Notes under the pieces: generated by a model
What the model was told of the DNA's origin: nothing
Seen by the model: the letters and a program-made list of their open reading frames with translations, nothing else
Database searches by the model: none
DNA from: Rhizobiaceae bacterium
GTDB lineage: Bacteria > Pseudomonadota > Alphaproteobacteria > Rhizobiales > Rhizobiaceae
DNA length: 64,000 nt
Direction of reading: 5' to 3'
Assembly (NCBI GenBank): GCA_016742175.1
Contig: JACVCH010000001.1
Location: 372,001-436,000 of the forward strand
Translations under genes and position numbers: made by a program
In this document: piece by piece, positions 46,155 to 63,269 of the stretch
How positions within the stretch are numbered: position 1 is the first letter of the stretch
How the letters are laid out: each line of letters opens with the position of its first letter

Positions 46155-46541
46155 TCAAGGTTCGCTTTCGCCGCGGGTGCATGGGGAGAGGCGGATGATG
46201 GAGCCGGAGGCCGGCACGAGCTGCGAAAGCTGCCGGCAGCGCCCGTCCGGCCCGCACAGCGTCCAGTCCGCGCCGCGGCCGGCATCCGACAGGACGAGTT
46301 CGGGAAGTGGCGGCAGGTTCGGGCGATAGTGCCAGGCGCCGTCGCGCAGGACGGCGCCTTCAGGGAACTCCATGCCGGCGCCGGTTCCCTCGACCGAGGC
46401 CTCTTCCAGGACGAGGCCCGCGTCCGTCACGCTCCAGCTTTCGGACCATTCGATCTTCTCGACCGAATGATCCCAGGAGAGCGTGAAGGATTGAAGCGCC
46501 AAGGCGACGATGGTTCCCGCCGCCTCGATGCACAGGTTCAT
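46155..46541 (-). CDS. DUF1850 protein of the TRAP transporter operon
   Basis: A 128-residue protein with a hydrophobic N-terminus, probably a signal peptide (ALALQSFTLSW follows it), and a small beta-rich domain containing FTLSWDHSVEKIEWSESW. That is the DUF1850 pattern: substrate-like 'hSVE...W.E.W'. Genes of this family nearly always sit next to TAXI-TRAP permeases; the function is unknown, possibly an accessory of the receptor in the periplasm. The ATG overlaps the permease stop in ATGA, so the two are translated together. Confidence 0.78.
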   Translation of the reverse strand: MNLCIEAAGTIVALALQSFTLSWDHSVEKIEWSESWSVTDAGLVLEEASVEGTGAGMEFPEGAVLRDGAWHYRPNLPPLPELVLSDAGRGADWTLCGPDGRCRQLSQLVPASGSIIRLSPCTRGESEP

Positions 46542-48700: not shown

Positions 48701-48745
48701 GTCGGGTGACCTCTCCCCATCGCGGGCGTCAAGCCCGCTTCATCG

Positions 48746-48780
48746 AAAAATCCGCCGGCGGGGCACGTCCCCGCCAACGG
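48746..48780 (-). terminator. Intrinsic terminator/attenuator between TAXI receptor and TRAP permease
   Basis: On the minus strand a 12-bp stem (two G-U wobbles; core GGCGGGG / CCCCGCC, loop ACGTG) is followed by A and five Ts. It lies about 40 bases after the receptor stop and about 45 bases before the permease start. Partial termination here would give more receptor than permease. A second hairpin (48722-48738) lies closer to the permease. Confidence 0.75.
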
Positions 48781-48819
48781 ATGCGTCAAGTCTGGCAGTC
48801 TGTCGCGCCAGAGCGATCC

Positions 48820-49782
48820 TTACTGGATCAGGCCCTGCTCGCGGTAGTAGCGCTCGGCGCCCGGATGCAGCGGCACCGGGTTCTCGTCGACGGCGTTTTC
48901 CAGTGCGATGGCCGATGCGGCCGAATGCGAGGAGACCATGCGGTCGAGGTTTTCGAAGAGCAGCTTCGTCATCTGGTAGGCGGTCTCTTCGGAGACGTCC
49001 TCGTGGGTGACGAGGTAGTTGATGACGGTCGCCGTCTGTACGTCCGCATCCTGGCCCTCATAGGTGCCGGCCGGGATGACGCCCGGCGCATAGGGCGCGC
49101 CGATGGATTCGACGAGCGCGGCCGGGATTTCGACGACGGTTGTCGGGTTCGTGGTCGCCAGATCCTGGATCGAGGCGACGCCGAGGCCGGCGGACTGCAG
49201 CGTGGCGTTGAGCTGGCGGTTCTTCATCAGCTCGACCGACTCGGCGAAGGGGAGATACTGGACCTGGCCGAGGTCTTCATAGGTCATGCCGGCCGCTTCG
49301 AGGATCGCGCGGGTGTTGAGCTCGGTGCCGGACGCCGGGGCGCCGACCGAGAGCGTCTTGCCGCGCAAATCTTCCAGCGTGGCGATGCCGCTGTCGGCGG
49401 TCGAGACGAGCTGGATGTAGTTCGGGTAGATCGCGGCGATGCGGCGCAGCTTGGTCAGCGGCTCGCGGAAGCCGGCTTCCTCGTCGCCTTCCCAGCCCAT
49501 GACCAGCGAGTCGCCGAGCGAGAAGCCGATTTCGCCGCGGCCCTGCTGCAGAAGGTTGAGATTCTCGACCGAAGCCTTGGTCGCCTGGACCTGCGTGCGC
49601 GAGCCCTCGATGCCTTCGCCATAGATTTCCGACAGGGCGACGCCGAGCGGATAATAGACGCCGGACGTGCCGCCCGTCAGCACGTTGATGAATTCCTGCG
49701 CCTTGGCGCCGGTCATGGCAACGCCGATGACGAGCGAAGCACCGACGATGCGGGCGAGGGTCTTGGTCGGTCGATTGAGCAT
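48820..49782 (-). CDS. TAXI family TRAP solute-binding protein
   Basis: A 320-residue periplasmic receptor with a signal peptide (residues 1-28, cleavage after GAKA). The mature start QEFINVLTGGTSGVYYPLGVALSEIY contains the family signature TGGTxGxYYPxG (shown in part). Two lobes alternate, with GAPASGTELNTRAILEAAGM typical of TAXI proteins. It delivers substrate to the fused TRAP permease. AGGGAGGAA precedes the ATG at good spacing. It is the first gene of receptor-permease-DUF1850. Confidence 0.93.
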   Translation of the reverse strand: MLNRPTKTLARIVGASLVIGVAMTGAKAQEFINVLTGGTSGVYYPLGVALSEIYGEGIEGSRTQVQATKASVENLNLLQQGRGEIGFSLGDSLVMGWEGDEEAGFREPLTKLRRIAAIYPNYIQLVSTADSGIATLEDLRGKTLSVGAPASGTELNTRAILEAAGMTYEDLGQVQYLPFAESVELMKNRQLNATLQSAGLGVASIQDLATTNPTTVVEIPAALVESIGAPYAPGVIPAGTYEGQDADVQTATVINYLVTHEDVSEETAYQMTKLLFENLDRMVSSHSAASAIALENAVDENPVPLHPGAERYYREQGLIQ

Positions 49783-50028: not shown

Positions 50029-51651
50029 ATGATACGTCTCGAGAATATCAGCAAGCAGAACGGCAAGCAGATCGTCTTCATCGAGGCGTCGGCGGCACTG
50101 CAGAAGGGCGAAAAGATCGGCCTCGTCGGCCCGAACGGGGCGGGCAAGACGACGCTCTTTCGCATGATCACTGGCGAGGAACACCCGGACGAAGGCCAGG
50201 TCGCGATCGATCGCGGGGTGACGATCGGCTATTTCAGCCAGGATGTCGGCGACATGGCGGGCAAGAGCGCGGTGGCGGAAGTCATCGACGGTGTCGGGCC
50301 GGTGAGCGCGCTTGCCGCCGAGATGGCCGAACTCGAGGCGGCCATGGGCGATCCGGACCGGGCCGACGAAATGGACGCAATCATCACCCGCTACGGCGAG
50401 GTGCAGGGACGGTTCGACGAACTCGACGGCTATGCGCTCGATGGGCGCGCCCGCGAGGTGCTGGCCGGGCTGGGGTTCAGCCAGGAGATGATGGACGGCG
50501 ATGTCGGCAAGCTTTCGGGCGGCTGGAAGATGCGCGTCGCGCTCGCGAAGATCCTGCTCATGCGGCCCGACGTGATGCTGCTCGACGAGCCGAGCAACCA
50601 TCTCGACCTCGAAAGTCTGATCTGGCTCGAAGCCTTCCTGCAGGGCTTCGACGGCGCGCTTTTGATGACGTCGCACGATCGCGAGTTCATGAATCGCATC
50701 GTCAACAAGATCGTGGAGATCGATGCGGGCTCGCTGACTTCCTATTCTGGCGACTATGCCTTCTATCAGGAACAGCGCGCGCTGACAGACTTGCAGCAGC
50801 AGGCGCAGTTCGAGCGGCAGCAGGCGATGCTGGCCAAGGAAATCGCGTTCATCGAGCGCTTCAAGGCGCGCGCGTCGCATGCAGCGCAGGTGCAGAGCCG
50901 GGTGAAGAAACTCGACAAGATCGACAAGGTGGAGCCGCCGAAGCGGCGCCAGACGGTGCGCTTCGAGTTCCAGCCGGCGCCGCGCTCGGGCGAGGACGTC
51001 GCGACGCTGAAGAACGTGTCCAAGAGCTATGGCAGCCGGACCATCTATGACGGGCTCGACTTCCAGGTGCGCCGGCGCGAGCGCTGGTGCGTGATGGGCA
51101 TCAACGGCGCCGGCAAGTCGACGCTTCTGAAGCTCGTGACCGGCACGGCCGATCCGGACAACGGTTCGGTGGCGCGGGGACCGAGCGTCAAGATGGGCTA
51201 TTTCGCGCAGCACGCGATGGAAGTGCTCGACGGCGAACGCACGGTGCTGCAATCGCTGGAGGACCAGTTCCCGCAGGCGGGCCAGGCGCCTTTGCGCGCG
51301 CTTGCCGGCTGCTTCGGCTTTTCCGGCGACGAGATCGAGAAGAAGTGCCGCGTGCTTTCGGGCGGCGAGAAGGCGCGGCTGGTGATGGCGAAGATGCTGT
51401 TCGATCCGCCGAACTTCCTCGTCCTCGACGAGCCGACCAACCATCTCGACATCGCCACCAAGGAGATGCTGATCGCCGCGCTCAAGCAGTACGAAGGCAC
51501 GATGCTGTTCGTCAGCCACGACCGGCATTTCCTCGCGGCGCTGTCGAACCGGGTTCTGGAACTGACCGAGGACGGCATCCGCACCTATGGCGGCGGCTAT
51601 ACCGAATATGTCGCCAGCACCGGGCAGGAAGCGCCGGGACTGCGCAGCTAG
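50029..51651 (+). CDS. ABC-F family ATPase
   Basis: A 540-residue cytosolic ABC-F protein: two ABC domains and no membrane segment. Walker A motifs are GPNGAGKTT (near residue 36) and GINGAGKST (near 360). Signature motifs are LSGGWKMRVALAKIL and LSGGEKARLVMAKML, and the Walker B lines are MLLDEPSNHLDLES and LVLDEPTNHLDIAT. The linker (about residues 245-310) is charged and helical. ABC-F proteins act on the ribosome E site; this one looks like the YbiT/Uup-like housekeeping kind rather than an antibiotic-resistance type. It is divergent from the TAXI gene and convergent with the LysR gene, whose stop it overlaps by four bases. Confidence 0.92.
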   Translation: MIRLENISKQNGKQIVFIEASAALQKGEKIGLVGPNGAGKTTLFRMITGEEHPDEGQVAIDRGVTIGYFSQDVGDMAGKSAVAEVIDGVGPVSALAAEMAELEAAMGDPDRADEMDAIITRYGEVQGRFDELDGYALDGRAREVLAGLGFSQEMMDGDVGKLSGGWKMRVALAKILLMRPDVMLLDEPSNHLDLESLIWLEAFLQGFDGALLMTSHDREFMNRIVNKIVEIDAGSLTSYSGDYAFYQEQRALTDLQQQAQFERQQAMLAKEIAFIERFKARASHAAQVQSRVKKLDKIDKVEPPKRRQTVRFEFQPAPRSGEDVATLKNVSKSYGSRTIYDGLDFQVRRRERWCVMGINGAGKSTLLKLVTGTADPDNGSVARGPSVKMGYFAQHAMEVLDGERTVLQSLEDQFPQAGQAPLRALAGCFGFSGDEIEKKCRVLSGGEKARLVMAKMLFDPPNFLVLDEPTNHLDIATKEMLIAALKQYEGTMLFVSHDRHFLAALSNRVLELTEDGIRTYGGGYTEYVASTGQEAPGLRS

Positions 51652-52862
51652 GTCGACTTTGCGGCGACGCGCAGCGCGTCGAGGAGTTCGGCCTGCAGGG
51701 TGGTCGGCATCCAGCCCTGACGGGTGGCGATGCCGATCGGGCGCGCGGTGGCTGGCAAAGAGAGCTTCAGCGGCACCAGAAGGCCGGAGTTCTCCTCGTA
51801 GGCGATCTGGCGGCGCGACATCAGCGTCAGCCGGTCGGAGTTGACGAGGAGGCCGCGCAGCGCGACCAGCGAGCCGGTCTCGACCAGGCCGCTGCCGCAT
51901 TGCGCGAGGTCGTGCCGCGCCGACAATTCGTCGAAGATCGCGCGGGTGGGCGTGCCCTTGCGCGGTAGTATCCATGGATAAGCGCGGAGGTCGTCGAAGG
52001 CGACGTTTGACAGCGCGGCGAGCGGATGGCCGGCGCGCACCACGACGGACAGCGGATCGTCGAAGAGCGCTTCCTGCGCGATACCTTTCGCCTCCGAGGC
52101 GGAGCGCAGGGCGCCGACCAGCATGTCGATCTCGCCGATGGCGAGCGCATGGGCGAGCGTGTCGTAGGAGCCGTCGACGATTTCCACCGACGCCGCCGGG
52201 CGCCGGCCGGTCCATGCGACGATGGCCTCCGGCACGATGCGCGTGCGGGCGAAGGGCAGGGTGCCGATGACGACGCGGCCGGTGAAGCGGCCGTCGAGTT
52301 CGCGGGCGTCCTCCAGCGCGTTTTCGAGTTCGCGCAGAACGAGGCTGGCCGCGCGTGCGAGCATGGTGCCGGTCGCAGTCAGGCGGATCGAGTTCTGCCG
52401 GCCTTCGAAGAGCGGGACCGTGCCGATGCGTTCCAGTTCGCGCGCGGCGCGCTGGACCGAGGGCTCGGCCTGTTCCAGGCGGCGGGCGGCAGCGGTGAAG
52501 CTGCTGGTCGAAGCGAAGGCTGCGACGGCGCGCAGATGTGCGATGGTGGCATGGGTTTCCAGGAGGTCGATCGCCAAGGCGCGGCCGATGGAGGCGTGGC
52601 GCGCAAGACGCTCGTTGGCTTCGCGCAACAGCGACAGGGCGCGCGCGGCGCGCTCGGTCAGAAGCCGGCCGCGCTCGGTGACGAACACGCCGGAGCCGCG
52701 CCGCTCGAACAGCGCGCCGCCGAACTGGCCTTCGAGCTTGGCGATGGCCTGCGAGGCGGCGGGTTGCGACACGCGCACAGCTTCGGCCGCGCGGGTCAGC
52801 GAGTTGGTTTCGGCGGCGAACTGGAAGAGCCGGACATGGCGCAGATTGGGGTAGGACGACAT
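51648..52862 (-). CDS. LysR-type regulator with two N-terminal HTH segments
   Basis: A 404-residue regulator, about 100 longer than a normal LysR protein. Residues about 7-66 form a LysR helix-turn-helix (LTRAAEAVRVSQPAASQAIAKLE). A second HTH-like segment follows at about 108-168 (FTAAARRLEQAEPSVQRAARELE, then FEGRQNSIRLTATG), and the effector-binding domain starts near residue 190. It lies 41 bases downstream of the galD-like gene on the same strand. It is the likely regulator of the aromatic cluster, comparable in role to GalR of the gallate pathway; that is inference from position. Confidence 0.88.
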   Translation of the reverse strand: MSSYPNLRHVRLFQFAAETNSLTRAAEAVRVSQPAASQAIAKLEGQFGGALFERRGSGVFVTERGRLLTERAARALSLLREANERLARHASIGRALAIDLLETHATIAHLRAVAAFASTSSFTAAARRLEQAEPSVQRAARELERIGTVPLFEGRQNSIRLTATGTMLARAASLVLRELENALEDARELDGRFTGRVVIGTLPFARTRIVPEAIVAWTGRRPAASVEIVDGSYDTLAHALAIGEIDMLVGALRSASEAKGIAQEALFDDPLSVVVRAGHPLAALSNVAFDDLRAYPWILPRKGTPTRAIFDELSARHDLAQCGSGLVETGSLVALRGLLVNSDRLTLMSRRQIAYEENSGLLVPLKLSLPATARPIGIATRQGWMPTTLQAELLDALRVAAKST

Positions 52863-52903: not shown

Positions 52904-53959
52904 TCAGTCGTAGACCAATCCGTCGAAGAGCTTGCGCGCGGTTCGAAGCACGCCTGCTTCGGCCAGATTGCCGTCGTCGTCGAGGCTCGCGGTGACGGTG
53001 AATTCGCCGGTCGGATGCTCGATGGAAATGAGCATGTCGCGCGCGCGTTGGAGCTTCGCGATTTTTGCTGCCGGGCCGTTTTCGAGCAGGCAGGCGGTGG
53101 CGACGCTGACGGCGCCCAAGACGCCGATCGCCTGGTGGCAGACATGGGGGATGAAAGTGCGGGTGGAGATCGCGCCGCCGGCCTGCGCGGCGCTGACGAG
53201 CGTCATCTTGGGCACGGATTTTTCCGTGACGTCGCCGAGATTCATCAACGGCCCGGCCTTCAGCCGGATCGCTTCGATGCGCGCCTTCAGTTCCGCATTG
53301 GCGTTGAGATCGGCCGGGGTTTCCGTGCCGGTGAGGCCGAAATCGTTGGCCGCCATGACGACGCAGGGCATGCCGTTGTCGATCAAGGTGACGTCGACGC
53401 CGTCGATCGTGTCGACCTCGTTGCCGGTCGGCAGGAGCGCGCCGCAGGAGGAGCCGGCGGTGTCCTTGAAGACGATGGGAACGGGCGCCGCCATGCCGGG
53501 GACGCCGTCGATGCGGGCGTCGCCGGCGTAGGTGACGCGTCCATCCGGCGTCCTCACGGTCGCGATGGCGATCTGGCCGGTGTTTTCCATGAAGATGCGC
53601 ACGCGCGTTTCGCCATCACCGGCCGCAACGAGGCCGCGCTCGATGGCAAAAGGGCCGATGCCGGCGAGGATGTTGCCGCAGTTCTGCGCGTCGGTGACGA
53701 TGGGCTTGTCGACGAAAACCTGCAGGAAGAGATAGTCGACATCGACGTCCGGCCGATCGGATTTCGACACGACCGCGACCTTGGAAGTGAGCGGATCGGC
53801 GCCGCCGAGGCCGTCGATCTGGCGGGGATCGGGCGAGCCCATGACGCGCAGGAGGAAGGCGTCGCGCGCCGCCGGATCGGCGGGCAAGTCGTCCTTGAGG
53901 AAATAGCCGCCCTTCGACGTACCACCGCGCATCCACATGGCGCGAATACCGTTCGTCAT
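52904..53959 (-). CDS. galD: 4-oxalomesaconate tautomerase-like PrpF protein
   Basis: A 351-residue PrpF-family protein (diaminopimelate-epimerase fold). The opening MWMRGGTSKGGYFL, then MGSPDPRQIDGLGGADPLTSKVAVV, FMENTGQIA and the Cys motifs NCGNILAGIGPFA and SSCGALLPTG all match GalD closely. GalD converts the keto tautomer of 4-oxalomesaconate to the enol for hydration in gallate catabolism. The ATG shares one base with the stop of the galB-like gene (TGATG); a GTG three bases earlier is possible. Adjacent galB supports 4-oxalomesaconate over other PrpF substrates such as methylaconitate. Confidence 0.82.
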   Translation of the reverse strand: MTNGIRAMWMRGGTSKGGYFLKDDLPADPAARDAFLLRVMGSPDPRQIDGLGGADPLTSKVAVVSKSDRPDVDVDYLFLQVFVDKPIVTDAQNCGNILAGIGPFAIERGLVAAGDGETRVRIFMENTGQIAIATVRTPDGRVTYAGDARIDGVPGMAAPVPIVFKDTAGSSCGALLPTGNEVDTIDGVDVTLIDNGMPCVVMAANDFGLTGTETPADLNANAELKARIEAIRLKAGPLMNLGDVTEKSVPKMTLVSAAQAGGAISTRTFIPHVCHQAIGVLGAVSVATACLLENGPAAKIAKLQRARDMLISIEHPTGEFTVTASLDDDGNLAEAGVLRTARKLFDGLVYD

Positions 53960-54684
53960 CACAGCGCGTCCACGGTGCGCGGGAAGATCGACTGGAAGCC
54001 TTCGGCATATTTCGCCTCACGCCCGCCGGCCTGGCCGCCGGAATTGCGCCGGAACTGGTTGGCGCGGTTCTCCGCGACGTTGGTGTAATAGTCCCAAAGA
54101 TGCTGCTGGCCCTCCATGCACTCGATGGCGGCCTTCTTCTTTTCCCAGACCGGCGTGATGTCGAGGATCGTGTCGGGCTTCCAGGCGCATTGTTCGGTCT
54201 GGTGCGGCTCGAACAGATAAAGCTGCGGCGCGCCGAGTACCTTCTCGCCGGGATTGTGACCCCAGGCCTGCGCGATCATCCGGCATTCGAGCGCGACGCG
54301 CGTCGCGTAGGGGTGGTCGGTGTTGTAGGGGTCCTCCATCGAGTGCGACAGCATGAAATCCGGCTGGACCTTGCGGATGACATCGACGAGGCGGAATTTC
54401 GCGTCGCGATCGAGTTCGAGCGGATAGTCGCCGCAATCGAAGAACTGGATGTCGGCTGCGCCAAGCGCAGAAGCGGCGGCTTCCGCCTCTTTACGGCGGG
54501 CGGCTTTGACGCCTTCAAGCGTCGCGCCCGCATTCTTCCACAGTTTCGCGCTTTCGCCGCGCTCGCCATAGGAGAGGCAGACGACGGTCACGTCGATGCC
54601 CTTTTCGGCGTGGAGCGCGATCGCGCCGCCGCAGCGCCAGACGAAATCGGCCGAGTGGGCGCTGATGACGAGGGCGGTGCTCAT
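53959..54684 (-). CDS. galB: 4-oxalomesaconate hydratase-like PIG-L protein
   Basis: A 241-residue LmbE/PIG-L fold protein. The metal site is SAHSADF (His10, Asp13) and the later NTDHPYATR (His124); FVWRCGGAIALHAEKG and CLSYGERGESAKLW are strikingly like Pseudomonas GalB, which adds water to 4-oxalomesaconate to form 4-carboxy-4-hydroxy-2-oxoadipate. It overlaps the dioxygenase-like gene upstream (ATGA) and the tautomerase gene downstream (TGATG). A deacetylase role is possible by family, but the context and the atypical AHSADF (not AHPDD) favour GalB. Confidence 0.82.
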   Translation of the reverse strand: MSTALVISAHSADFVWRCGGAIALHAEKGIDVTVVCLSYGERGESAKLWKNAGATLEGVKAARRKEAEAAASALGAADIQFFDCGDYPLELDRDAKFRLVDVIRKVQPDFMLSHSMEDPYNTDHPYATRVALECRMIAQAWGHNPGEKVLGAPQLYLFEPHQTEQCAWKPDTILDITPVWEKKKAAIECMEGQQHLWDYYTNVAENRANQFRRNSGGQAGGREAKYAEGFQSIFPRTVDAL

Positions 54685-55655
54685 GGTTTGGTGCCTCCTT
54701 TGGCGACGGGCGGCGTGCCGTGGGTGTGGAAGGATTCGATCGTCTTCAGGCCCCAAGCCTGGCCCTTTTTCCGCTCGGCCTCGGTCCAGACGATCGTCTG
54801 CCAGTCGGGGTCGAGGACGAGGCGCGCGCCGGCGTTGGCGATCTCGATGCGATTGCCGGCGGGCTCGTAGACGTAGAGGAAGAAGGTGCCCTGGATGGCG
54901 TGGCGATGCGGGCCGGTTTCGATGAAGACGCCGTTTTCGAGGAAGACGTCGGCCGCCCGCAGGATGTCGTCGCGGTGGTCGGCGGCATAGGTCAGATGGT
55001 GGAAGCGGCCGCGCGTGCCGGAATGATCTTCCGTGCAGGCCATGTCGTAGCCCTTGTTGTTGACCGTGAACCAGCAGCCGCCGATGCGGCCATTGTCGAG
55101 CTGGATCATCTCGGTCACGCGACTGCCGAGCGCCTCGACCATGAAGTCGCGGATCTTCGACACGTCGGTCGCCAGAAGATTGAAATGGTCGATGCGGCGC
55201 GGCGCGGCGCCGCGTGCGTGGAAGCGTTGGGCGACGTTCTTGAGGGCGGGACGTTCGGCTTCGGGCGCCTGGTATTTGTGCGTGTCCCAGTAGAGCTCGA
55301 AGACGTGGCCGTCCGAGCTATGGAAGCGGTAGGAACGGCCGTGGCCGAGATCGCCGTCGGTCCAGCCGATGCCGAGGCCCATCTTCTCGATGACGGCCAC
55401 GCGTCGGTCGAGCGCGGCCTCAGACGACGTGCGGTAGGCGCAGTGCGCCATGCCGGTGGTGTTCGATGCCGTCAGCTTGAGGGAATGGAACTCGTAGTCG
55501 TCCCAGGCGCGCAGATAGACCGAAGGGCCCTCGCGGCCGGCTTCCGTCAGGCCGTAGACGTTGACGAAGAAATCGAGGCTTTCCTCGAATTTATCGGTCA
55601 GGAGTTCGACATGGCCGAGATGGGCGACGTCGAAGCAGGGTTCACTCATGGTCAT
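54681..55655 (-). CDS. Type I extradiol dioxygenase (VOC, catechol 2,3-dioxygenase-like)
   Basis: A 324-residue protein with two VOC modules. The C-terminal module has the full iron site of extradiol dioxygenases: His157 (RRIDHFNL), His220 (RFHHLTYA) and Glu271 (GNRIEI). His252 and Tyr261 sit at the spacings of the acid-base residues in XylE (His246, Tyr255 before Glu265). It should open a catecholic or gallate-like ring with O2. Known gallate and protocatechuate 4,5-dioxygenases are type II enzymes, so the substrate here is not obvious. The ATG overlaps the livF stop (ATGA); another ATG is two codons later. Confidence 0.85.
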   Translation of the reverse strand: MTMSEPCFDVAHLGHVELLTDKFEESLDFFVNVYGLTEAGREGPSVYLRAWDDYEFHSLKLTASNTTGMAHCAYRTSSEAALDRRVAVIEKMGLGIGWTDGDLGHGRSYRFHSSDGHVFELYWDTHKYQAPEAERPALKNVAQRFHARGAAPRRIDHFNLLATDVSKIRDFMVEALGSRVTEMIQLDNGRIGGCWFTVNNKGYDMACTEDHSGTRGRFHHLTYAADHRDDILRAADVFLENGVFIETGPHRHAIQGTFFLYVYEPAGNRIEIANAGARLVLDPDWQTIVWTEAERKKGQAWGLKTIESFHTHGTPPVAKGGTKP

Positions 55656-56389
55656 GCCTTTCGGGAGGCTGCGTCGTCGACATCGAGATTCATGCCGACA
55701 TAGCGGTCGAGCGTCGCGCGGTCGTCGAGGAGCGCCTGCGACTTCGCGCGATGGGCGACCGTGCCGCGCTCGATGACGAGGGCGTCCTGCGTCAGCGCGA
55801 GCGCGACGTCGGCGTGCTGCTCGACGAGGACGAGCGCCATGCCCTCGTTCTGCGCCATGGCGCGGATGGCGGCGGTGAGTTCCTCGACGATGATCGGCGC
55901 GAGGCCCTCCAGTGGTTCGTCGAGCAGGAGAACGGCGGGGTTTGTCATCAGCGTGCGGCCGATGGTGAGCATCTGCTGCTCGCCGCCGGAGAGCTGGTTG
56001 CCCATGTTGCCGCGCCGTTCCTTCAGGCGCGGGAAGAGGTCCCAGATGGCGTCGAGCGTCCAGCGGCCGGAGCGGGCGGCGACGGTCAGGTTCTCCTCGA
56101 CGGAGAGCGAGGGGAAGATGTCGCGCTCCTGCGGGACCCAGCCGAGGCCGTGCCGCGCGCGCTTGTGCGAGGGCAGGCGCGAGATGTCCTGGCCGCGGAA
56201 ATGGATGCTGCCGCCCGTCAGTGGCAGGAAGCCCATGGCGGTCAGGATCATCGTCGTCTTGCCGACGCCGTTGCGGCCGAGAAGGGCAAGGCTGCCGCCT
56301 TCCGGCACCGCAAACGAGACATGGTCGAGCACGATGCCGGACCCGTAGCCGGCGCTGACGTCCCGGAACTCGAGGATCGGCTCAGCCAT
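55652..56389 (-). CDS. livF: Branched-chain-type ABC transporter ATPase LivF
   Basis: A 245-residue ABC ATPase with Walker A GRNGVGKTT, signature LSGGEQQMLTIGR and Walker B LLLDEPLEGLAP, the last two in the form typical of LivF. With LivG it powers uptake through LivHM. The ATG at 56389 overlaps the livG end by 8 bases; its stop overlaps the dioxygenase start. In this setting the transporter probably carries an aromatic acid rather than leucine. Confidence 0.92.
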   Translation of the reverse strand: MAEPILEFRDVSAGYGSGIVLDHVSFAVPEGGSLALLGRNGVGKTTMILTAMGFLPLTGGSIHFRGQDISRLPSHKRARHGLGWVPQERDIFPSLSVEENLTVAARSGRWTLDAIWDLFPRLKERRGNMGNQLSGGEQQMLTIGRTLMTNPAVLLLDEPLEGLAPIIVEELTAAIRAMAQNEGMALVLVEQHADVALALTQDALVIERGTVAHRAKSQALLDDRATLDRYVGMNLDVDDAASRKA

Positions 56390-57146
56390 GCGCGCCGTGC
56401 CCCAGATAGACGTCGCGCACGCGCGCATCGGTGCGGATGTTCGCCGTCGTGTCCTCGACCAGCACGCCGCCGCTGACCAGGACGATGATGCGGGTGGCGA
56501 AGCGGAAGACGATGTTCATGTCGTGCTCGATGAAGAGCACCGAAATGTCCGCCGGCAGGCCGGCGATGACCGAAAAGAGCATCGCGCTCTCGTCCTTCGG
56601 GACGCCGGCGGCAGGCTCGTCGAGGAGCAGGACCTTGGGGCGGGTGGCGAGCGCCAGCGCGATTTCCAGAAGGCGCTGCTGGCCGTAGGCGAGGGTGCGC
56701 GTCGGCTGCGTCGCGACGTCGGCGAGGCGAAGGCGCATCAGGATTTCGAAGGCCTCGTCGATCGCCTCGGTCTGCGTCGACAGGCGGCGCCAGAACTGGC
56801 CGGCGACGGCCTCGCGTTCGCTGACAGCGAGCGTCACCGCCTCGATCGGCGTCAATTCGGGAAAGAGCGTGTTGATCTGGAAGGTGCGCGCGAGGCCCTT
56901 TCGCACGCGGGTAGCGGCCGGTGCGGCGGTGATGTCCTCGCCGTCGAGCTCGATGGTGCCTGAATCGGGCTTGAGCTGGCCGGTGATGAGGTTGATCAGC
57001 GTCGTCTTGCCGGCGCCGTTGGGACCGATCAGCGCGTAGCGGCAACCGCGCGGCAGTGTGAGCGAGACGTCGCGCGCGACCTTGAGCGCGCCGAAATTCT
57101 TCCGCAGCGCGTCGGTCCTGAGCATGATCGGCTGCGCGTCCGCCAT
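56382..57146 (-). CDS. livG: Branched-chain-type ABC transporter ATPase LivG
   Basis: A 254-residue ABC ATPase with Walker A GPNGAGKTT, the LivG hallmark ARTFQINTLFPELTPIEAV, signature-region TLAYGQQRLLEIALAL and Walker B LLLDEPAAGV. The signature has Ala-Tyr-Gly in place of Leu-Ser-Gly, as often in LivG. The ATG overlaps the livM stop by one base (TGATG). Confidence 0.93.
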   Translation of the reverse strand: MADAQPIMLRTDALRKNFGALKVARDVSLTLPRGCRYALIGPNGAGKTTLINLITGQLKPDSGTIELDGEDITAAPAATRVRKGLARTFQINTLFPELTPIEAVTLAVSEREAVAGQFWRRLSTQTEAIDEAFEILMRLRLADVATQPTRTLAYGQQRLLEIALALATRPKVLLLDEPAAGVPKDESAMLFSVIAGLPADISVLFIEHDMNIVFRFATRIIVLVSGGVLVEDTTANIRTDARVRDVYLGHGAHG

Positions 57147-58126
57147 CAGCCGCGCCTTCCTGCGAGCCTGGCGAGGAAGCCGAGGATGCCCTTCGGCATG
57201 AACAGCACGACGACCATCAGGAGGAGCCCGATCCAGAAATACCAGTATTGCGGGTTGATGCCGGCAAGCTGGTCGCGCGCGATCATGAAGATGATGGCGC
57301 CGAGGATGGCGCCGTAGAGCCGGCCGGTGCCGCCGAGGATCAGCATTACGACCACGTCGGCCGAGCGCTGGAAGCTTAAGACGTCGAGGCCCACCGTGTT
57401 GGTTGTCTGCGTCAGGAGGCCGCCGGCAACGCCCGCCAGCGCGGCGGAGATCGTGTAGATCTTGCGCAGATGCCAGGAATGGTCCGAGCCGATCGCCGGC
57501 ATGCGCTTGACGTTCTCGCGGATGCCGCGGAGCGCGAGGCCGAAGGAGGAGTTGACGATGGTGCGGCTGAGGAGAAAGCCGAGGAAGAGCACGACGAGCG
57601 AATAGGTGTAGGCAGTGTAGCCCCACAGGTCGAAACGGAACGCGCCGAAGATTTCCCAGGTGTCGACGCCGCGCAGGCCGTCGGTGCCCCCGGTCAGCCA
57701 CGTCATCGCGTTGGCGAGTTCGTAGGCGAGGAAGCCGAGGCCGAGCGTGACCATGATCAAGGCGAGGTGCTGGACGCGCACGATCAGGTAGCTCGCCACG
57801 AAGCCGACGAGGCCGGCCACCGCGCCGGCGAAGAGGAGACCGGAAATCGGCTCGCCCCAGCCGAGCCTGGCGCTGAGAAGCCCGACGGAATAGGCGCCGA
57901 GGCCGAAGAACAGCGCATGGCCGAGCGTGACGATGCCGGCATAGCCGAGGATGAGGTCGACGGAGATGGCGAAGAGGGCGGCGATGGCGATCTGGCTTGC
58001 CAGGGTCAGGTAGGTCGGGAACAGGAAGAACGGCACGAGCGTCGCCAGCCAGAAGGCGATCTCGAAATACGACCAGCGGCTCTGGCGGGCGAGCCAGGCG
58101 TGGGCGGTGGTGGTTAGGGGCGTCAT
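57146..58126 (-). CDS. livM: Branched-chain-type ABC transporter permease LivM
   Basis: A 326-residue permease with about eight to ten transmembrane helices and the LivM motifs LGYAGIVTLGHALFFGLGAYSVGLL and GIRENVKRMPAIGSD (the EAA-like cytoplasmic loop). GTDGLRGVDTW is also a LivM feature. It is separated from livH by 190 bases that are filled by repeat element C, whereas all downstream junctions overlap. Confidence 0.92.
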   Translation of the reverse strand: MTPLTTTAHAWLARQSRWSYFEIAFWLATLVPFFLFPTYLTLASQIAIAALFAISVDLILGYAGIVTLGHALFFGLGAYSVGLLSARLGWGEPISGLLFAGAVAGLVGFVASYLIVRVQHLALIMVTLGLGFLAYELANAMTWLTGGTDGLRGVDTWEIFGAFRFDLWGYTAYTYSLVVLFLGFLLSRTIVNSSFGLALRGIRENVKRMPAIGSDHSWHLRKIYTISAALAGVAGGLLTQTTNTVGLDVLSFQRSADVVVMLILGGTGRLYGAILGAIIFMIARDQLAGINPQYWYFWIGLLLMVVVLFMPKGILGFLARLAGRRG

Positions 58127-58163
58127 GGGCGGTTACACCCGCGATCAATGCCGTGATCACGCA

Positions 58164-58303
58164 GCTCTCTGTCGCGCCCCCCTCTGTCCTGCCGGACATC
58201 TCCCCCGCGTGGGGGGAGATCACGCGCGTCGAGGTTGGCGATTAGCCAATCTCCCCCCTTGCGGGGGAGATGGCCGGCAGGCCGGAGGGGGGCACCGTAG
58301 AGC
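58164..58303 (+). repeat. Palindromic intergenic element C, inside the liv operon
   Basis: A second copy of the element at 23936-24072. It has the same outer ends (CTCTGTCGCGCCCCCCTCTG ... GAGGGGGGCACCGTAGAGC), the same two CATCTCCCCC / GGGGGAGAT hairpins and a diverged centre. It lies between livH and livM and would form a long hairpin in the mRNA. Confidence 0.9.
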
Positions 58304-58316
58304 ATGACCATCTCCC

Positions 58317-59177
58317 TCACCGCCTTCCGAACAGGCCGATCGGCCGCCACAGGAGGATCGCGACGAGGATGAGGTAGATCAGGAAGGAGCCGATCTCGGG
58401 GACGAAATACTTGCCGGCGACGTCGCCGATGCCGAGGAGGGCGGCGCCGACGAAGGAGCCGGTGATGGAGCCGAGGCCGCCGACGGAGACGACGATCAGG
58501 ACGTAGACGAGGTAGTGGAACGCGAAGGACGGGTCGAGGCCGACGATCTCGATCGCCAGCGCGCCGCCGAGGCCGGCAAGGCCGCTGCCGAGCGCGAAGG
58601 TGATGCCGAATATCTGTTCGACATTGAGGCCGAGGCCTTGCGCCACGCGCTGGTTGTCGACGGCGGCGCGGATCTGCGCGCCGAGGCGCGTGCGCTCGAT
58701 GCCGAAGACGAGCAGCGCGGTGATGGCGAGCGCAATGGCGATGAGGAAGATGCGGTAGGTGCCGAAGCGGATACCGCCGATCTCGACCGTGCCGCGCAGC
58801 CATGCGGGCAGGCGGATCGGCTGCTGGACCGTACCGAAGAAATAGGTCGCCGCCGCCGTCGCGACGAAGACCATGCCGATGGTGAAGAGGACCTGGTTGA
58901 GTTCACCGGCCCGGTAAAGCCGGCGAAATAGGGTCCGTTCGATGACGATGCTGGCGAGCGCGGCGGCGAGGAACGCGACCGGCAGCGCCAGGATGAAGGG
59001 CAGGCCGAGTTGGCGCATGACGAGCACGGTGACGTAGCCGCCGAGCATGCCGAACGCGCCATGCGCCAGGTTGATGAAGTTCATCATGCCCAGCGTCACC
59101 GACAGGCCCACCGACAGGACGAACAGAAGCATCCCGAAGGCGAACCCGTCGAAGAGGACGATGACGAGATTGGTCAT
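58317..59177 (-). CDS. livH: Branched-chain-type ABC transporter permease LivH
   Basis: A 286-residue inner-membrane permease with about eight helices, opening with FDGFAFGMLLFVLSVGLSVTLGMMNFINLAHG, the conserved LivH start, and the loop RTRLGAQIRAAVDNQRVAQGLG containing the EAA-type coupling segment. It partners LivM. It starts 28 bases after the binding-protein gene. Confidence 0.93.
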   Translation of the reverse strand: MTNLVIVLFDGFAFGMLLFVLSVGLSVTLGMMNFINLAHGAFGMLGGYVTVLVMRQLGLPFILALPVAFLAAALASIVIERTLFRRLYRAGELNQVLFTIGMVFVATAAATYFFGTVQQPIRLPAWLRGTVEIGGIRFGTYRIFLIAIALAITALLVFGIERTRLGAQIRAAVDNQRVAQGLGLNVEQIFGITFALGSGLAGLGGALAIEIVGLDPSFAFHYLVYVLIVVSVGGLGSITGSFVGAALLGIGDVAGKYFVPEIGSFLIYLILVAILLWRPIGLFGRR

Positions 59178-59205
59178 CTAGGCGCCGGCCCGGTCCGTGG
59201 TCGCT

Positions 59206-60381
59206 TTACTGCGTGCCGTGCAGCGGGTCCTTCACGTCGGGAATTTCGTGGATGACGACGTTCTGCAACTCGCCGTCGACCTCCTGCACCTCGCGGATGT
59301 AGACGGTCTGGACGACGTCGCGCGTTTCCGGGTCGATCGACATCGGCCCGCGCGGGCTGTCCCACGCCATGCCCTTCGCGGCCTCGATCAGCGCATCGCC
59401 GGAGGTGTCGCCCTCGGTCTTCTTCAGCGCCTCGTAGATCAGGTGCATGCCGTCATAGCCGCCGATCGAGAACAGGTCGGGCGAGCGGCCGCCATTGGCT
59501 TCGCGATAGGCCTCGCGGAACTCGTTGTTCAGCGGATCATCGCGCTCGAGCGAGTAGTGGTAGGTGGTGATGATGCCGTTGGCCGTGTCGCCCATGCTTT
59601 CGAGCGCTTCGGGGTGGGTGAGTTCGCCCTGCGCGAAGATCTTGGTTTCCGGCGGGGCAAGGCCGCGGTCGACCAGCGCCTTGCCGATGGCGGCCGGCTG
59701 CGCGCCGCCCGGAACGAAGATGTAGACGGCTTCCGGGTTCGCATCGCGCACGCGCTGGACGAAGGCCGAGAAGTCGGGATTGGCGACCGGGGTGCGGTCG
59801 GCGCCGACGATCGTGCCGCCCGCCTCGGTGAAGCCCGCGGCGAAGGCCTTTTCGGCATCGTGGCCGGGGCCGTAATCGGCGACGAGCGTATAGGCTTCCT
59901 TGACGCCGGATTCGAACGCCCACTGGCCGAAGACGGTATTCAACTGCGGGATGGTGACGCCCGTGCGCACGATGTATTCGGACTGCTCCGTGACGATCGA
60001 GGTCGCGGCGTTCATGACGACCATCAGCTTCTGCGCCTCGGTCGCGATCGGCGCGGCGCCGAGTGCCTCGGGGGTGAGCGCGAAGCCAGCGATGATGTCG
60101 ACGCCGTCACGCACGACGAGCTCCTGCGCGAGGCGCTGGGCGACGTCCGGGGCCGGGCCGCCTGTGTCCTTCTTGACCAGTTCGATGGTCTTTCCGGCGA
60201 CCTCGTTGCCGTGCTTGGCGATGTAGAGGTCGATGCCGGCCTGCAACTGGTTGGCAGCGTCCGCGAACGGGCCCGAATAGGGCAGGATGACGCCGATCTT
60301 GACGGTTTCCTGCGCTCCGGCGTGCACCGACCACGACAGGCCGGCGGCCAGAATCGTGGCGAACATCATCTTCGTCTTCAT
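59206..60381 (-). CDS. Liv-type ABC transporter substrate-binding protein
   Basis: A 391-residue periplasmic binding protein (Peripla_BP_6 type) with a signal peptide (residues 1-22, MKTKMMFATILAAGLSWSV...AGA). The mature domain begins ETVKIGVILPYSGPFADAANQ and contains DPETRDVVQTVYIREV near the end. Proteins of this group bind aromatic acids (as in Rhodopseudomonas CouP-like systems) or amino acids. The operon context with an O-demethylase and ring-cleavage genes favours an aromatic ligand. GGGAGG precedes the ATG at 60381. Confidence 0.9.
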   Translation of the reverse strand: MKTKMMFATILAAGLSWSVHAGAQETVKIGVILPYSGPFADAANQLQAGIDLYIAKHGNEVAGKTIELVKKDTGGPAPDVAQRLAQELVVRDGVDIIAGFALTPEALGAAPIATEAQKLMVVMNAATSIVTEQSEYIVRTGVTIPQLNTVFGQWAFESGVKEAYTLVADYGPGHDAEKAFAAGFTEAGGTIVGADRTPVANPDFSAFVQRVRDANPEAVYIFVPGGAQPAAIGKALVDRGLAPPETKIFAQGELTHPEALESMGDTANGIITTYHYSLERDDPLNNEFREAYREANGGRSPDLFSIGGYDGMHLIYEALKKTEGDTSGDALIEAAKGMAWDSPRGPMSIDPETRDVVQTVYIREVQEVDGELQNVVIHEIPDVKDPLHGTQ

Positions 60382-60482
60382 TCTTTTTTCCTCCCTTGGG
60401 CCGGCCGCCAGGCGCGGCCACCGGACCCCAGTTTCGGCGTATCGGGGAAGGTCTGCAACCGCCAATCGAAAGGCAGGCCGGC

Positions 60483-60497
60483 GGCATAAGCTTTGCC
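60483..60497. promoter_or_regulatory. Possible operator upstream of the binding-protein gene
   Basis: GGCATAAGCTTTGCC is an interrupted dyad (arms GGCA/TGCC around a HindIII-like centre) in the 126-base gap between the O-demethylase and binding-protein genes. It could be a LysR-type half site pair or chance; the case is weak. Confidence 0.2.
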
Positions 60498-60507
60498 TAC
60501 TGGAGGT

Positions 60508-61908
60508 TCAGCTTGCCCGGGTGCGCCAGCTATCGACGTAGTTCTCGCGCGCTTCGCGGGCATAGGGGACGGGCGAGACGCGAACGCGGATCTCGGCCTG
60601 CTTGTGGCGCTCGGTCGAGGTCTTGCCGGTGCCGCCGTCGGGCTCGCCCCAGACGAGCGTCAGCACGTCGCCGACATTGACATCGGGATCGACGATGCCG
60701 AGCGAGAGCATGGCGCGCTCATTGAAGGAATAGCCGTTGAACATGGACAGGCCGACGAGCCTGCCGTCCTTCTCAACCCTGTCGAAGGAGGAGGAGGCGT
60801 AGTTGGGCTGTGGCAGGTCGATCCACTTGTAGTTCTGCTCGCCATTGCGGAAGCTAGAATGGATGATCTTCATCACATCCTCGTCGTTCCACTCGAAGGT
60901 GACCTTCTTGCGCTGCGTCTTCGCGTCCATCTTCTCCAGCGCCTGCCGGCCGACGAAGTCGTGGTCGAACTTCACGTAGAAGCCGTAACCGAGTTCATAG
61001 GGCGTCGTGTAGTAATCCTCGATGTCGTCGGAGACGTAGGAGCCGCCGATCGAGCCGGTCGCCTCGTAGCCGTTGGCGGGCAGCCATTCGCGATAGGCGC
61101 GCATCTCGTCGCCGGAATAGATGGCGGGAAGCGGCGAGGGAATCCAGCCGGATTCGAGCGTGTTGGTCGAATAGGCGCGGCTGCCGACCTGGTAGAGGTC
61201 GTGGCCCTTGCCGGCCTCGACGATGGCGGCCTGGATTTCGTCCTTCTCCTCGTAGGGCCCCCAGATTTCCAGCCCCGGCGCGCCGGCCATGCCGTGGCGC
61301 AGTGCGCGGACCTTGCGGCCGGCGATGGTGATGCGATCCATGTTGAAGAATTTGATCTCGGGGATCGGGCCGCCATTCAGCTTTTCGAGGATGGCGGTGG
61401 CGTTCGGCCCCTGGATCTGGAAGCGGTAGTGGCGCCGGTCGACTTTCTTGCCGTCGGGGCGCGAGGGCGAGCGGTCATCGCGGGTGACCTTGACGTCGTG
61501 CTTGCCGAGGGACGCGTTGTACTCGACCCAGTTGACGGTCGGCGCGCGGCCGACGAGCAGATACTGGTTGTCATCGAGGTGGAAGAGGATGACGTCGCCG
61601 ATGACGTGGCCCGAGGGGCCGACCGGGACGTAGTGCTTCGCCTTGTCGACGGTGAAGCCATTGAAGGAATTGATCGACAGGCTTTCGAGGAACGGCCCGG
61701 CATCGGGGCCTTCCACCATTAGCTCGGCCATGTGGTGCGACTGGTCGAAGAGCACCGCGCTGTCGCGCCAGGCGCGCTGTTCGTCGCGCCAGTTGGTGAA
61801 CTCGGCGGCGACGACCGGATAGACATACATGCCGATCTTCGAATTGCGCAGAAGACCGACCGTGTCGCCGTTCTGCCGCAGCACGTCCTCGAGATTGCGC
61901 GCGCCCAT
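60508..61908 (-). CDS. LigM-like aromatic O-demethylase (GcvT fold, tetrahydrofolate-dependent)
   Basis: A 466-residue protein of the aminomethyltransferase (GcvT) fold. It is close in length and pattern to LigM of Sphingobium, which moves the methyl group of vanillate or 3-O-methylgallate to tetrahydrofolate. Recognisable parts are LRNSKIGMYVYPVVAAEFTNW, LFDQSHHMAEL (His58/His59) and GPNATAILEKLNGGPIPEIKFFNM. The C-terminal lobe is GcvT_C-like, with GYSFNERAMLSLGIVDPDVNVGD. From memory LigM uses a Tyr near 31 and a His near 60, and Tyr30 and His58/59 are present here. GGAGG precedes the ATG. DesA-like syringate demethylase or a dimethylsulfoniopropionate-type relative are the alternatives. 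Confidence 0.78.
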   Translation of the reverse strand: MGARNLEDVLRQNGDTVGLLRNSKIGMYVYPVVAAEFTNWRDEQRAWRDSAVLFDQSHHMAELMVEGPDAGPFLESLSINSFNGFTVDKAKHYVPVGPSGHVIGDVILFHLDDNQYLLVGRAPTVNWVEYNASLGKHDVKVTRDDRSPSRPDGKKVDRRHYRFQIQGPNATAILEKLNGGPIPEIKFFNMDRITIAGRKVRALRHGMAGAPGLEIWGPYEEKDEIQAAIVEAGKGHDLYQVGSRAYSTNTLESGWIPSPLPAIYSGDEMRAYREWLPANGYEATGSIGGSYVSDDIEDYYTTPYELGYGFYVKFDHDFVGRQALEKMDAKTQRKKVTFEWNDEDVMKIIHSSFRNGEQNYKWIDLPQPNYASSSFDRVEKDGRLVGLSMFNGYSFNERAMLSLGIVDPDVNVGDVLTLVWGEPDGGTGKTSTERHKQAEIRVRVSPVPYAREARENYVDSWRTRAS

Positions 61909-61997: not shown

Positions 61998-63269
61998 CTA
62001 GACGAGCGCGCCCTGTTCGGCGAGGCGCGCCTGGACGCTGCGCGCATCGTTGCGGTGGTCGCCATCGACATGATCCGCGGCCGCGACGCCGGCGGCCTGG
62101 CCGGTGGCGAAGGCCGTTCCCATGACCCGGATCGAGCCATAGGCATGCGGATCGGCGCCGATGACGCGGCCGCCATACCACAGATTGTCGAGGCCCTTGG
62201 CGCGGATCGAATCGTAGGGGACGTGGCAGTAGCCCTTGCCGCCGATCGAGGTGTAGCTCGGCTTGCCGGCCTCGCCGTGAAGCTCGATCGGCCAGGCGGC
62301 GCGGGCGATGCCGTCCTCGCGCAGTCGACCGGAGACCACGTCCTCGCCGGTCATCTCGTAGCGCGCGGCGGGGTGGCGCGTTTCGCGGACGCCGATCTGG
62401 GGGCCGGTGGCAACGAGATAGGCGCGCTCGAAGCCGGGCATGTCGCGCTTGAGCATGGCGACATAGTCGTTGGCGCGGGCGCGCGCTTCCATCTCGGCTG
62501 CCGTGAAGCTTTCGGAGGAGAGGTCCGGCAGGGCGACATCGACGGTCATCCACCACATGTCGTGCGAGAGCGGCAGGCGGATGATGATGCCGCCGTCGGT
62601 GCGCTGGATCGGGTGTGCGCCATCCTGGTTGTAGCGCGCGATGGCCGCCTGCAGCGCCTTGCGGTCGATGTCGAGATCGGGCGCGATGCCGCCGACGCGG
62701 ATCGGCATGGTGAGCGCCTGGAGCTTGCCTTCGGCGTCGCCGGTGCGGAACGGAATGCCGGCCAGCATGGCGAGATTGGCGTCGCCCGAAGCGTCGACGA
62801 AGGCCTCGGCGACGACACGGCTGCGCCCGCCCATGCCGGCGAGCGTGACGGCTTCGAGTCTGTCTGCCGTGCGCGCGACGGAGGCGACACGCGTGTGGAG
62901 CCTGACGTCGATGCCGTAGCGGCGGACGAGATTGTCGAGCGCGAATTTGAGGACTTCGCCGTCGAGGAGGACGATCCAGTTTCCGGTCGTCTCCGAGCGG
63001 AAGGCTTCGCCGTCGAGCCCGTGCCGGCGCAGTTCGCCGACGACCTCCTCGCCGACGCCGCCGACGGCCTTCACCGGCTCGCGCCCCTGCTGGAACAGGC
63101 CGCAATAGGCGTAGACCTGCGAGGTCGTCGCCGCGCCGCCGAGAAAGCCGTATTTCTCGACGAGGCACACCTTCGCGCCCGCCTTCGCCGCGCCGATGGC
63201 GGCGGCAACGCCCGCCGTCCCGCCGCCGCACACGACGACGTCGTAATCGGCTTCCACTCGCTTGGTCAT
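61998..63269 (-). CDS. FAD-dependent oxidoreductase (FAD_oxidored family)
   Basis: A 423-residue flavoprotein with the dinucleotide motif VVVCGGGTAGVAAAIGAAKAG (residues 11-31, shown in part) and LVEKYGFLGGAATTSQV, typical of the PF12831 group. A second glycine motif VDASGDANLAML and the C-terminal FAD-contact GGRVIGADPHAYGSIRVMGTAFATGQAAG complete the fold. Family substrates vary widely. It starts 10 bases after the permease gene and is 89 bases upstream of the LigM-like gene, so a role in the same catabolic route is plausible but unproven. Confidence 0.85.
   Translation of the reverse strand: MTKRVEADYDVVVCGGGTAGVAAAIGAAKAGAKVCLVEKYGFLGGAATTSQVYAYCGLFQQGREPVKAVGGVGEEVVGELRRHGLDGEAFRSETTGNWIVLLDGEVLKFALDNLVRRYGIDVRLHTRVASVARTADRLEAVTLAGMGGRSRVVAEAFVDASGDANLAMLAGIPFRTGDAEGKLQALTMPIRVGGIAPDLDIDRKALQAAIARYNQDGAHPIQRTDGGIIIRLPLSHDMWWMTVDVALPDLSSESFTAAEMEARARANDYVAMLKRDMPGFERAYLVATGPQIGVRETRHPAARYEMTGEDVVSGRLREDGIARAAWPIELHGEAGKPSYTSIGGKGYCHVPYDSIRAKGLDNLWYGGRVIGADPHAYGSIRVMGTAFATGQAAGVAAADHVDGDHRNDARSVQARLAEQGALV

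Follow-up and report, generated by a model that had tools for sequence, protein, structure and literature searches.

A VOC-fold type I extradiol dioxygenase as the proposed gallate ring opener of a ligM-liv-gal gene cluster in a Rhizobiaceae bacterium

Gallate is a breakdown product of plant tannin and lignin, and the related protocatechuate 4,5-cleavage yields a semialdehyde that needs LigC and LigI to reach 4-oxalomesaconate. According to the consulted part of PMC12314914, cleavage of gallate by GalA leads to 4-oxalomesaconate directly. Gallate use is usually inferred from homologues of GalA, DesB or LigAB; the homologue survey of that paper is an example. The portion of the AromaDeg description considered here (PMC4250580) assigns gallate dioxygenases to the LigB superfamily, and gallate is missing from the type I substrates that it names. 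In this work we have analyzed a stretch of 64,000 nucleotides (the window, G000:C19:372001-436000) from the genome of a Rhizobiaceae bacterium (4.30 Mb, 34 contigs, 96.1% complete), which carries on the minus strand the genes ligM, livK, livH, livM, livG, livF, VOC, galB, galD and a LysR-type regulator gene, in this order (Table 1). The VOC gene encodes a putative type I extradiol dioxygenase. Judging from sequence comparisons, we consider it likely that the cluster serves the uptake and breakdown of methoxylated or free gallate-type plant aromatics, and that its ring opener is this type I (VOC) enzyme and not a type II enzyme such as GalA, DesB or LigAB.

With the gal pathway of Pseudomonas putida KT2440 the locus shares homologues of GalD, GalB and GalC, an adjoining LysR-type regulator and the same expected intermediates; it differs in having a VOC-fold ring opener in place of the LigB-type GalA, a presumed Liv-type ABC uptake system, a coupling to LigM and an unlinked galC. 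The syringate and vanillate system of Sphingobium SYK-6 (DesA/LigM/DesB/LigAB) likewise comprises a LigM-type O-demethylase leading to gallate, whereas the genome analyzed here has no LigB-family match, no LigC and no close LigI. An earlier note, made from the nucleotide sequence of the window, had listed LigM-like, Liv transporter, VOC, GalB-like and GalD-like genes on one strand with overlapping junctions from livM to galD. All of them are present in that order, with family scores that exclude chance open reading frames (ORFs), and the junctions are as described: livM and livG share 1 base, livG and livF overlap by 8 bases, and livF/VOC, VOC/galB and galB/galD by 4 bases each (galD counted from its GTG).

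According to the proposed scheme, aromatics would be taken up by the Liv-type ABC transporter, and LigM, whose family we take to be tetrahydrofolate-dependent, would O-demethylate 3-O-methylgallate (and vanillate). The VOC protein would then perform an Fe(II)-dependent extradiol C4-C5 cleavage of gallate to give 4-oxalomesaconate directly, with substrate, bond and metal all predicted; GalD would carry out the keto-enol shift, GalB the hydration, and GalC, encoded past the window end, the splitting to pyruvate and oxaloacetate. By analogy with GalR of Pseudomonas, the product of the LysR gene adjoining galD may sense 4-oxalomesaconate. Since the VOC protein would fill the ring-cleavage slot without the dehydrogenase needed for protocatechuate cleavage, the arrangement points to gallate.

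The VOC protein matches PF00903 (68.4 bits), the family of the VOC/glyoxalase fold, and gives no match to PF02900, the LigB fold of the gallate dioxygenases GalA and DesB; its score against the catechol 2,3-dioxygenase model TIGR03211 (315.8 bits) lies slightly below the cut-off of 320.2. The predicted model has the two-domain VOC fold (pLDDT 83.8, pTM 0.86), and its top Foldseek matches are 3lm4 and 7q2a, with TM scores (query) of 0.86-0.88. The VOC protein resembles the AphC / RHA1 extradiol dioxygenase (7q2a, 3lm4) in its two-domain fold (TM about 0.87), its 2-His-1-Glu site and the equivalents of His252 and Tyr261, but the identity is about 37%, Tyr203, Thr247 and His250 replace His, Ala and Asp (3lm4), and VOC lies in a gal operon. 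In an alignment of the window protein with its 80 closest relatives (the best 80 of 338 in the genome collection) the metal site H157, H220 and E271 is invariant in all 81 proteins, as are the second-sphere residues His252 and Tyr261, so that the reading of these five residues in the earlier note was correct. To them we add the substitution Tyr203, which in 81 of 81 proteins occupies the position of the second-sphere His200 of homoprotocatechuate 2,3-dioxygenase; LapB, AphC/3lm4 and homoprotocatechuate dioxygenase all have His at the aligned position. Because fold and metal site are those of type I enzymes, the Tyr203 protein is best regarded as a variant inside this superfamily.

The Tyr203/Thr247/His250 pattern was also found in 15 of 18 plasmid entries, corresponding to 14 distinct proteins of 61-72% identity because entries L117 and L138 carry one identical VOC gene; the three entries without the pattern are 40-46% identical and have His203. 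The closest solved sequence, 9wgj (8e-113; deposited as 'catechol 1,2-dioxygenase' and not among the Foldseek matches listed), shares Tyr203 but has Leu247 and Ser250. In a FastTree tree of 46 sequences the 41 with Y203/T247/H250 grouped without others, but the node support of only 0.30 is too low to establish the group as monophyletic with respect to 9wgj. Among named organisms, the VOC gene has its nearest relatives in Aliihoeflea and a Mesorhizobium strain (95-97% identity), and genes of this family are annotated in the records seen as 'VOC family protein', 'catechol 2,3-dioxygenase' or 'bphC'.

Searches for ring openers in the window genome covered PF02900, the VOC query and the intradiol families. 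The PF02900 profile (LigB family, comprising GalA and LigAB) gave no match in this genome, a draft that at 96% completeness could miss a gene, and gave matches in 4 of 14 control genomes; the VOC query matched VOC itself and no further copy, and LigC (PF19858) was absent from the genome. The same-genus genome G060 (99% complete), with VOC at 95% and GalB at 98% identity, gave no PF02900 or PF19858 match either, and a second one, G148 (VOC 75%, GalB 76%), gave one weak PF02900 match (86.2 bits). A LigAB or GalA encoded elsewhere, which according to the earlier note would have spoken against VOC replacing GalA, was therefore found by this profile neither in the window genome nor in G060, and the proposed replacement gains support from genome evidence, namely this lack of a LigB-family match and the replacement pattern across relatives described below.

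The remark that no aldolase gene was in view holds for the window and fails beyond it: a search of the genome revealed galC on the same contig 16.5 kb past the window end (G000:C19:452482-453150; L114:16482-17150), adjoining a TRAP solute-binding gene and scoring 394.8 bits with TIGR02798 (cut-off 304.5). GalD, GalB and GalC, the lower pathway of gallate, are thus all encoded. The genome also contains a second LigM-type gene (contig C14, 727.7 bits) and, on contig C8, genes for the alpha and beta subunits of protocatechuate 3,4-dioxygenase, both above their cut-offs, which gives protocatechuate an intradiol route of its own. A LigI-like query, itself assigned from its cluster and PF04909, reached at best 34% identity (G000:C34), in what is probably another amidohydrolase. 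Gallate, one of the substrates put forward in the earlier note, is favoured over protocatechuate in this genome because LigC is absent and no close LigI was found. From 3-O-methylgallate to central metabolism a standard enzyme is predicted for every step but ring cleavage, for which VOC is the fitting gene found.

Co-occurrence was analyzed in a family sample of 199 genomes including the window genome, drawn evenly from a larger group, with thresholds of E<=1e-60 for VOC and E<=1e-50 for GalB; LigB matches above 150 bits, a limit chosen by us, were counted as strong. VOC is present in 52 genomes (65-100% identity) and GalB in 62, and GalB accompanies VOC without exception (52 of 52; Fisher 3.8e-38). 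Nine of the ten genomes with GalB and without VOC have LigC and strong LigB, and LigC was detected in 2 of 52 VOC genomes versus these 9 of 10 (Fisher 2.6e-8). Eight of the nine (L099-L106) carry galB, galC and galD with a LigI-like gene and ligB (8/8) and a LigA-like match (7/8, not L104); L099 additionally has 4-hydroxybenzoate 3-monooxygenase and L103 a PF19858 LigC-type gene, and clusters of this type look like protocatechuate 4,5-cleavage clusters. The ninth genome, G146, has galBCD separate from LigB (L107, L108). Strong LigB without GalB occurs in seven family genomes and LigC without GalB in one (G110, 68% complete). Neither VOC, LigC nor strong LigB was found in the tenth genome with GalB and without VOC, G145 (L109, L110), which has two galB genes and possibly harbours a third kind of ring opener. 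Among 385 class genomes, the window genome included, all six with VOC of at least 65% identity carry GalB, the five with VOC at 43-48% identity all lack it, and 14 carry GalB without VOC of at least 65% identity. Over all relatives, galB tends to be partnered either by the VOC gene or by the type II dioxygenase module, the one replacing the other.

The neighbourhoods of the 80 relatives were inspected in flanks of up to 9 kb, some loci being shortened by contig ends. GalB was found at 61 loci, GalD at 58 and GalC at 60, the last count including three weak matches of 28-29% (L033, L039, L056); LigM was found at 31, a DUF1932 protein at 36, a Liv-type binding protein at 34 and LigB at 6. All three gal genes are present at 53 of the 80 loci and any gal gene at 62 (L033, L039 and L056 excluded), and at 42 a gal gene lies on the same strand within 300 bases of VOC. 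The DUF1932 NAD(P)-dependent dehydrogenase (L008:6867-7784 and 35 other relatives; L137:10511-11386) accompanies gal genes with VOC, LigAB or GalA alike. A gene for a MetE-like cobalamin-independent methionine synthase II was noted at 19 of the 80 VOC loci (e.g. L079:7889-8995) and at L138:15778-16893; 18 of the 19 lack LigM in the locus, and a methyl-transfer role of the gene is possible.

Named plasmids extend the association of VOC with gal genes. In Agrobacterium tumefaciens strain 186, pAt carries GalB-VOC-GalC-GalD followed, 189 bases on, by a gene of the tannase/feruloyl esterase family (PF07519, 437.9 bits), with no O-demethylase in 19 kb. The same GalB-VOC-GalC-GalD set occurs in A. 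vitis, Thioclava, Rhizobium sp. Q54, Rhizobium sp. SL42 and a Paracoccaceae strain. In Rhizobium etli IE4771, GalB, VOC and GalD occur together with GalC-like matches in two pieces. A. tumefaciens H25/79 has GalC, GalD and VOC with GalB not found in the stretch, and in Methylobacterium currus GalC lies 7 kb from VOC, while the stretch gave no match to GalB or GalD. On a Pantoea piersonii plasmid, a VanAB-type oxygenase, a LysR gene, galBCD, a dehydrogenase and a MetE-like gene stand with VOC, and in the 23 kb from 34 to 57 kb no gallate dioxygenase is annotated and a LigB query gave no tblastn match; a Klebsiella aerogenes plasmid has the same galBCD-dehydrogenase order, but with GalA where Pantoea piersonii has VOC. 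By its gene content, the VOC-gal module has reached Deinococcota: a Thermus oshimai plasmid (L129:8956-12865) carries VOC (64% to the window protein), a PIG-L gene and GalC together. The other arrangement is seen on plasmids of Azospirillum argentinense and Nitratireductor sp. OM-1, where galB-galC-galD is accompanied by an amidohydrolase, LigAB-type genes and a Gfo/Idh/MocA oxidoreductase, and the stretch yields no match to VOC. A Neorhizobium plasmid has galB and galC with no VOC or LigB in the stretch.

Several observations weigh against the role proposed for VOC. The His200 replaced by Tyr203 is described in the consulted part of PMC10760822 as the proton carrier of homoprotocatechuate 2,3-dioxygenase, the rate being vanishingly small without it, and the loss of this His makes the catalytic route uncertain. 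Among the 80 loci, 18 show no convincing gal gene (15 none, 3 with the 28-29% GalC-like match alone) within the flanks. The Enterobacterales plasmids of Chimaeribacter and Pantoea At-9b carry VOC with no gal genes within 9 kb, and in Pantoea At-9b another 49 kb searched on one side gave no gal match either. In Roseomonas the cluster around VOC has LigA/LigB, hydrolase and VanAB-type genes of its own but yields no match to a gal gene. Strong LigB was also detected in 10 of 52 VOC genomes versus 9 of 10 with GalB and without VOC (Fisher 3.8e-5), several of them in one cluster with LigA and a hydrolase, hence VOC is not always the sole ring opener. As the genomes share ancestry, the Fisher values overstate independence and are descriptive. 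Tannase neighbours, sought in further VOC loci, were found in L120 alone and represent one lineage, and the window genome has two more intradiol-family matches (C2, 137.4 bits; C20, 38.2). Finally, LigM is also able to act on vanillate, which would not yield gallate.

The alternative that survives best, though we regard it as unlikely, is that VOC cleaves mainly 3-O-methylgallate, like DesZ or MgaAB, while LigM serves vanillate, and that the cleavage product is either converted to 2-pyrone-4,6-dicarboxylate (PDC) by loss of methanol or hydrolyzed by an esterase before GalD, GalB and GalC act. O-demethylase clusters are indeed common among the loci, as the LigM count shows, and a LigI-like homologue of at least 50% identity is present in 12 of 52 VOC genomes, in some directly beside VOC (G101, G105); in part of the VOC family 3-O-methylgallate may therefore be a substrate, via PDC and LigI or an MgaC-like hydrolase. 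The 34% LigI-like match in the window genome speaks against this alternative, as does the tannase-linked cluster of pAt, which shows no O-demethylase. At the VOC loci with LigB (6 of 80, together with G028, G064, G120 and Roseomonas) the latter is accompanied by LigA and an alpha/beta hydrolase, a set that appears to resemble the MgaABC 3-O-methylgallate set of PMC12314914, as far as the consulted part describes it; such a set beside VOC would leave gallate to VOC. At L073:8301-9356 (one of 6 such cases among the 80 relatives) the alpha/beta hydrolase is fused to, or read through into, the LigA domain, beside the LigB gene and a GntR regulator.

It is still less probable that VOC is a protocatechuate 4,5-dioxygenase with an unrecognised dehydrogenase in the place of LigC. 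LigM could supply protocatechuate from vanillate, a DUF1932 dehydrogenase is frequent at the loci (36 of 80), and genes for 4-hydroxybenzoate 3-monooxygenase and for an aldehyde dehydrogenase are found close to VOC in Thermus oshimai, but LigC is absent from 50 of 52 VOC genomes and present in 9 of the 10 with GalB and without VOC, which disfavours protocatechuate as the substrate, and the window genome encodes protocatechuate 3,4-dioxygenase. The DUF1932-like gene follows galBCD in Klebsiella beside the annotated gallate dioxygenase and occurs in LigC-bearing clusters as well, so it is no marker of protocatechuate cleavage by VOC, and its candidacy as a LigC substitute is weakened. Least probable of all is an enzyme for an unrelated catechol (detoxification or a side compound) that merely neighbours the gal genes, since the near-cut-off TIGR03211 score, the VOC relatives from Thermus thermophilus and Rhodococcus in apparent catechol meta-cleavage clusters and the two Enterobacterales VOC genes without gal neighbours are set against the 52/52 co-occurrence with GalB, the replacement pattern with LigAB/LigC, the Y203/T247/H250 residues shared by gal-linked proteins and missing from the catechol-cluster relatives, and the overlapping VOC/galB start and stop codons in the window. 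Catechol meta-cleavage was also rejected as the role of the VOC group because these two relatives share only 40-44% identity with it and have retained His203.

Returning to gallate cleavage by VOC, we lean, with less assurance than for the cluster itself, towards a wider proposal: the Tyr203/Thr247/His250 proteins would form a distinct family of non-orthologous gallate dioxygenases, cleaving a carboxylated triol although they lack the second-sphere His of their relatives. In Hyphomicrobiales this family would provide a main gallate-type ring-opening route, and it would extend to Rhodobacterales, Enterobacterales and Thermus. The open-licence PubMed Central papers searched, judged by titles and the beginnings of abstracts, included none on a VOC gallate dioxygenase, which is no proof of absence. 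If the proposal is true, alpha-proteobacteria seemingly unable to open the gallate ring would have a complete route, and genes now carrying the three annotations quoted above could be named. The group would also show that extradiol cleavage can occur in nature in the absence of the second-sphere His, and it would add a ring opener to those available for lignin conversion.

Table 1 Features of the ligM-liv-gal cluster and its flanks (positions in the window)
Feature	Position	Strand	Evidence
FAD-dependent oxidoreductase upstream of ligM	61998..63269	-	PF12831 1.8e-91
LigM-type vanillate/3-O-methylgallate O-demethylase	60508..61908	-	NF047885 722.9 bits (cut-off 580); 5x1i/5tl4 ~1e-185
Liv-type periplasmic substrate-binding protein (livK)	59206..60465	-	PF13458 5.7e-68
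LivH-type permease	58317..59177	-	PF02653 4.3e-33
LivM-type permease	57146..58126	-	ORF and 93% identical homologue, equivalent place in L001-L003
LivG-type ATPase	56382..57146	-	Walker A-like motif by eye in translation; homologues in relatives
LivF-type ATPase	55652..56389	-	Walker A-like motif by eye in translation; homologues in relatives
VOC (type I) extradiol dioxygenase, proposed gallate ring-cleavage enzyme	54681..55655	-	PF00903; H157/H220/E271 site; Tyr203
GalB, 4-oxalomesaconate hydratase (PIG-L fold)	53959..54684	-	5cgz 1.1e-100 (best solved match); PF02585
GalD, 4-oxalomesaconate tautomerase	52904..53962	-	NF033377 547.5 bits (cut-off 440); 6p3j/6p3h/6p3k <=1e-160
LysR-type regulator, GalR-like candidate	51648..52862	-	41 bases past galD; PF00126/PF03466

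Some features of the remaining genes complete the picture of the cluster. The window LigM scored 673.5 with the DesA model, under its cut-off of 800, and the best NCBIfam model for the LysR protein was PcaQ (215.9, under the cut-off of 303.8). The livK ORF opens at TTG, and the real start is probably inside the ORF. The FAD-dependent oxidoreductase upstream of ligM is perhaps outside the pathway; the segment 61998-63999, which contains it and a TauC/SsuC-like ABC permease, is conserved at over 90% identity in two of the 80 relatives only (L001, L003). On the other side of the cluster, at 46538-49782, lie ORFs which, judged from their translations, resemble a TRAP transporter with a TAXI-type binding protein.

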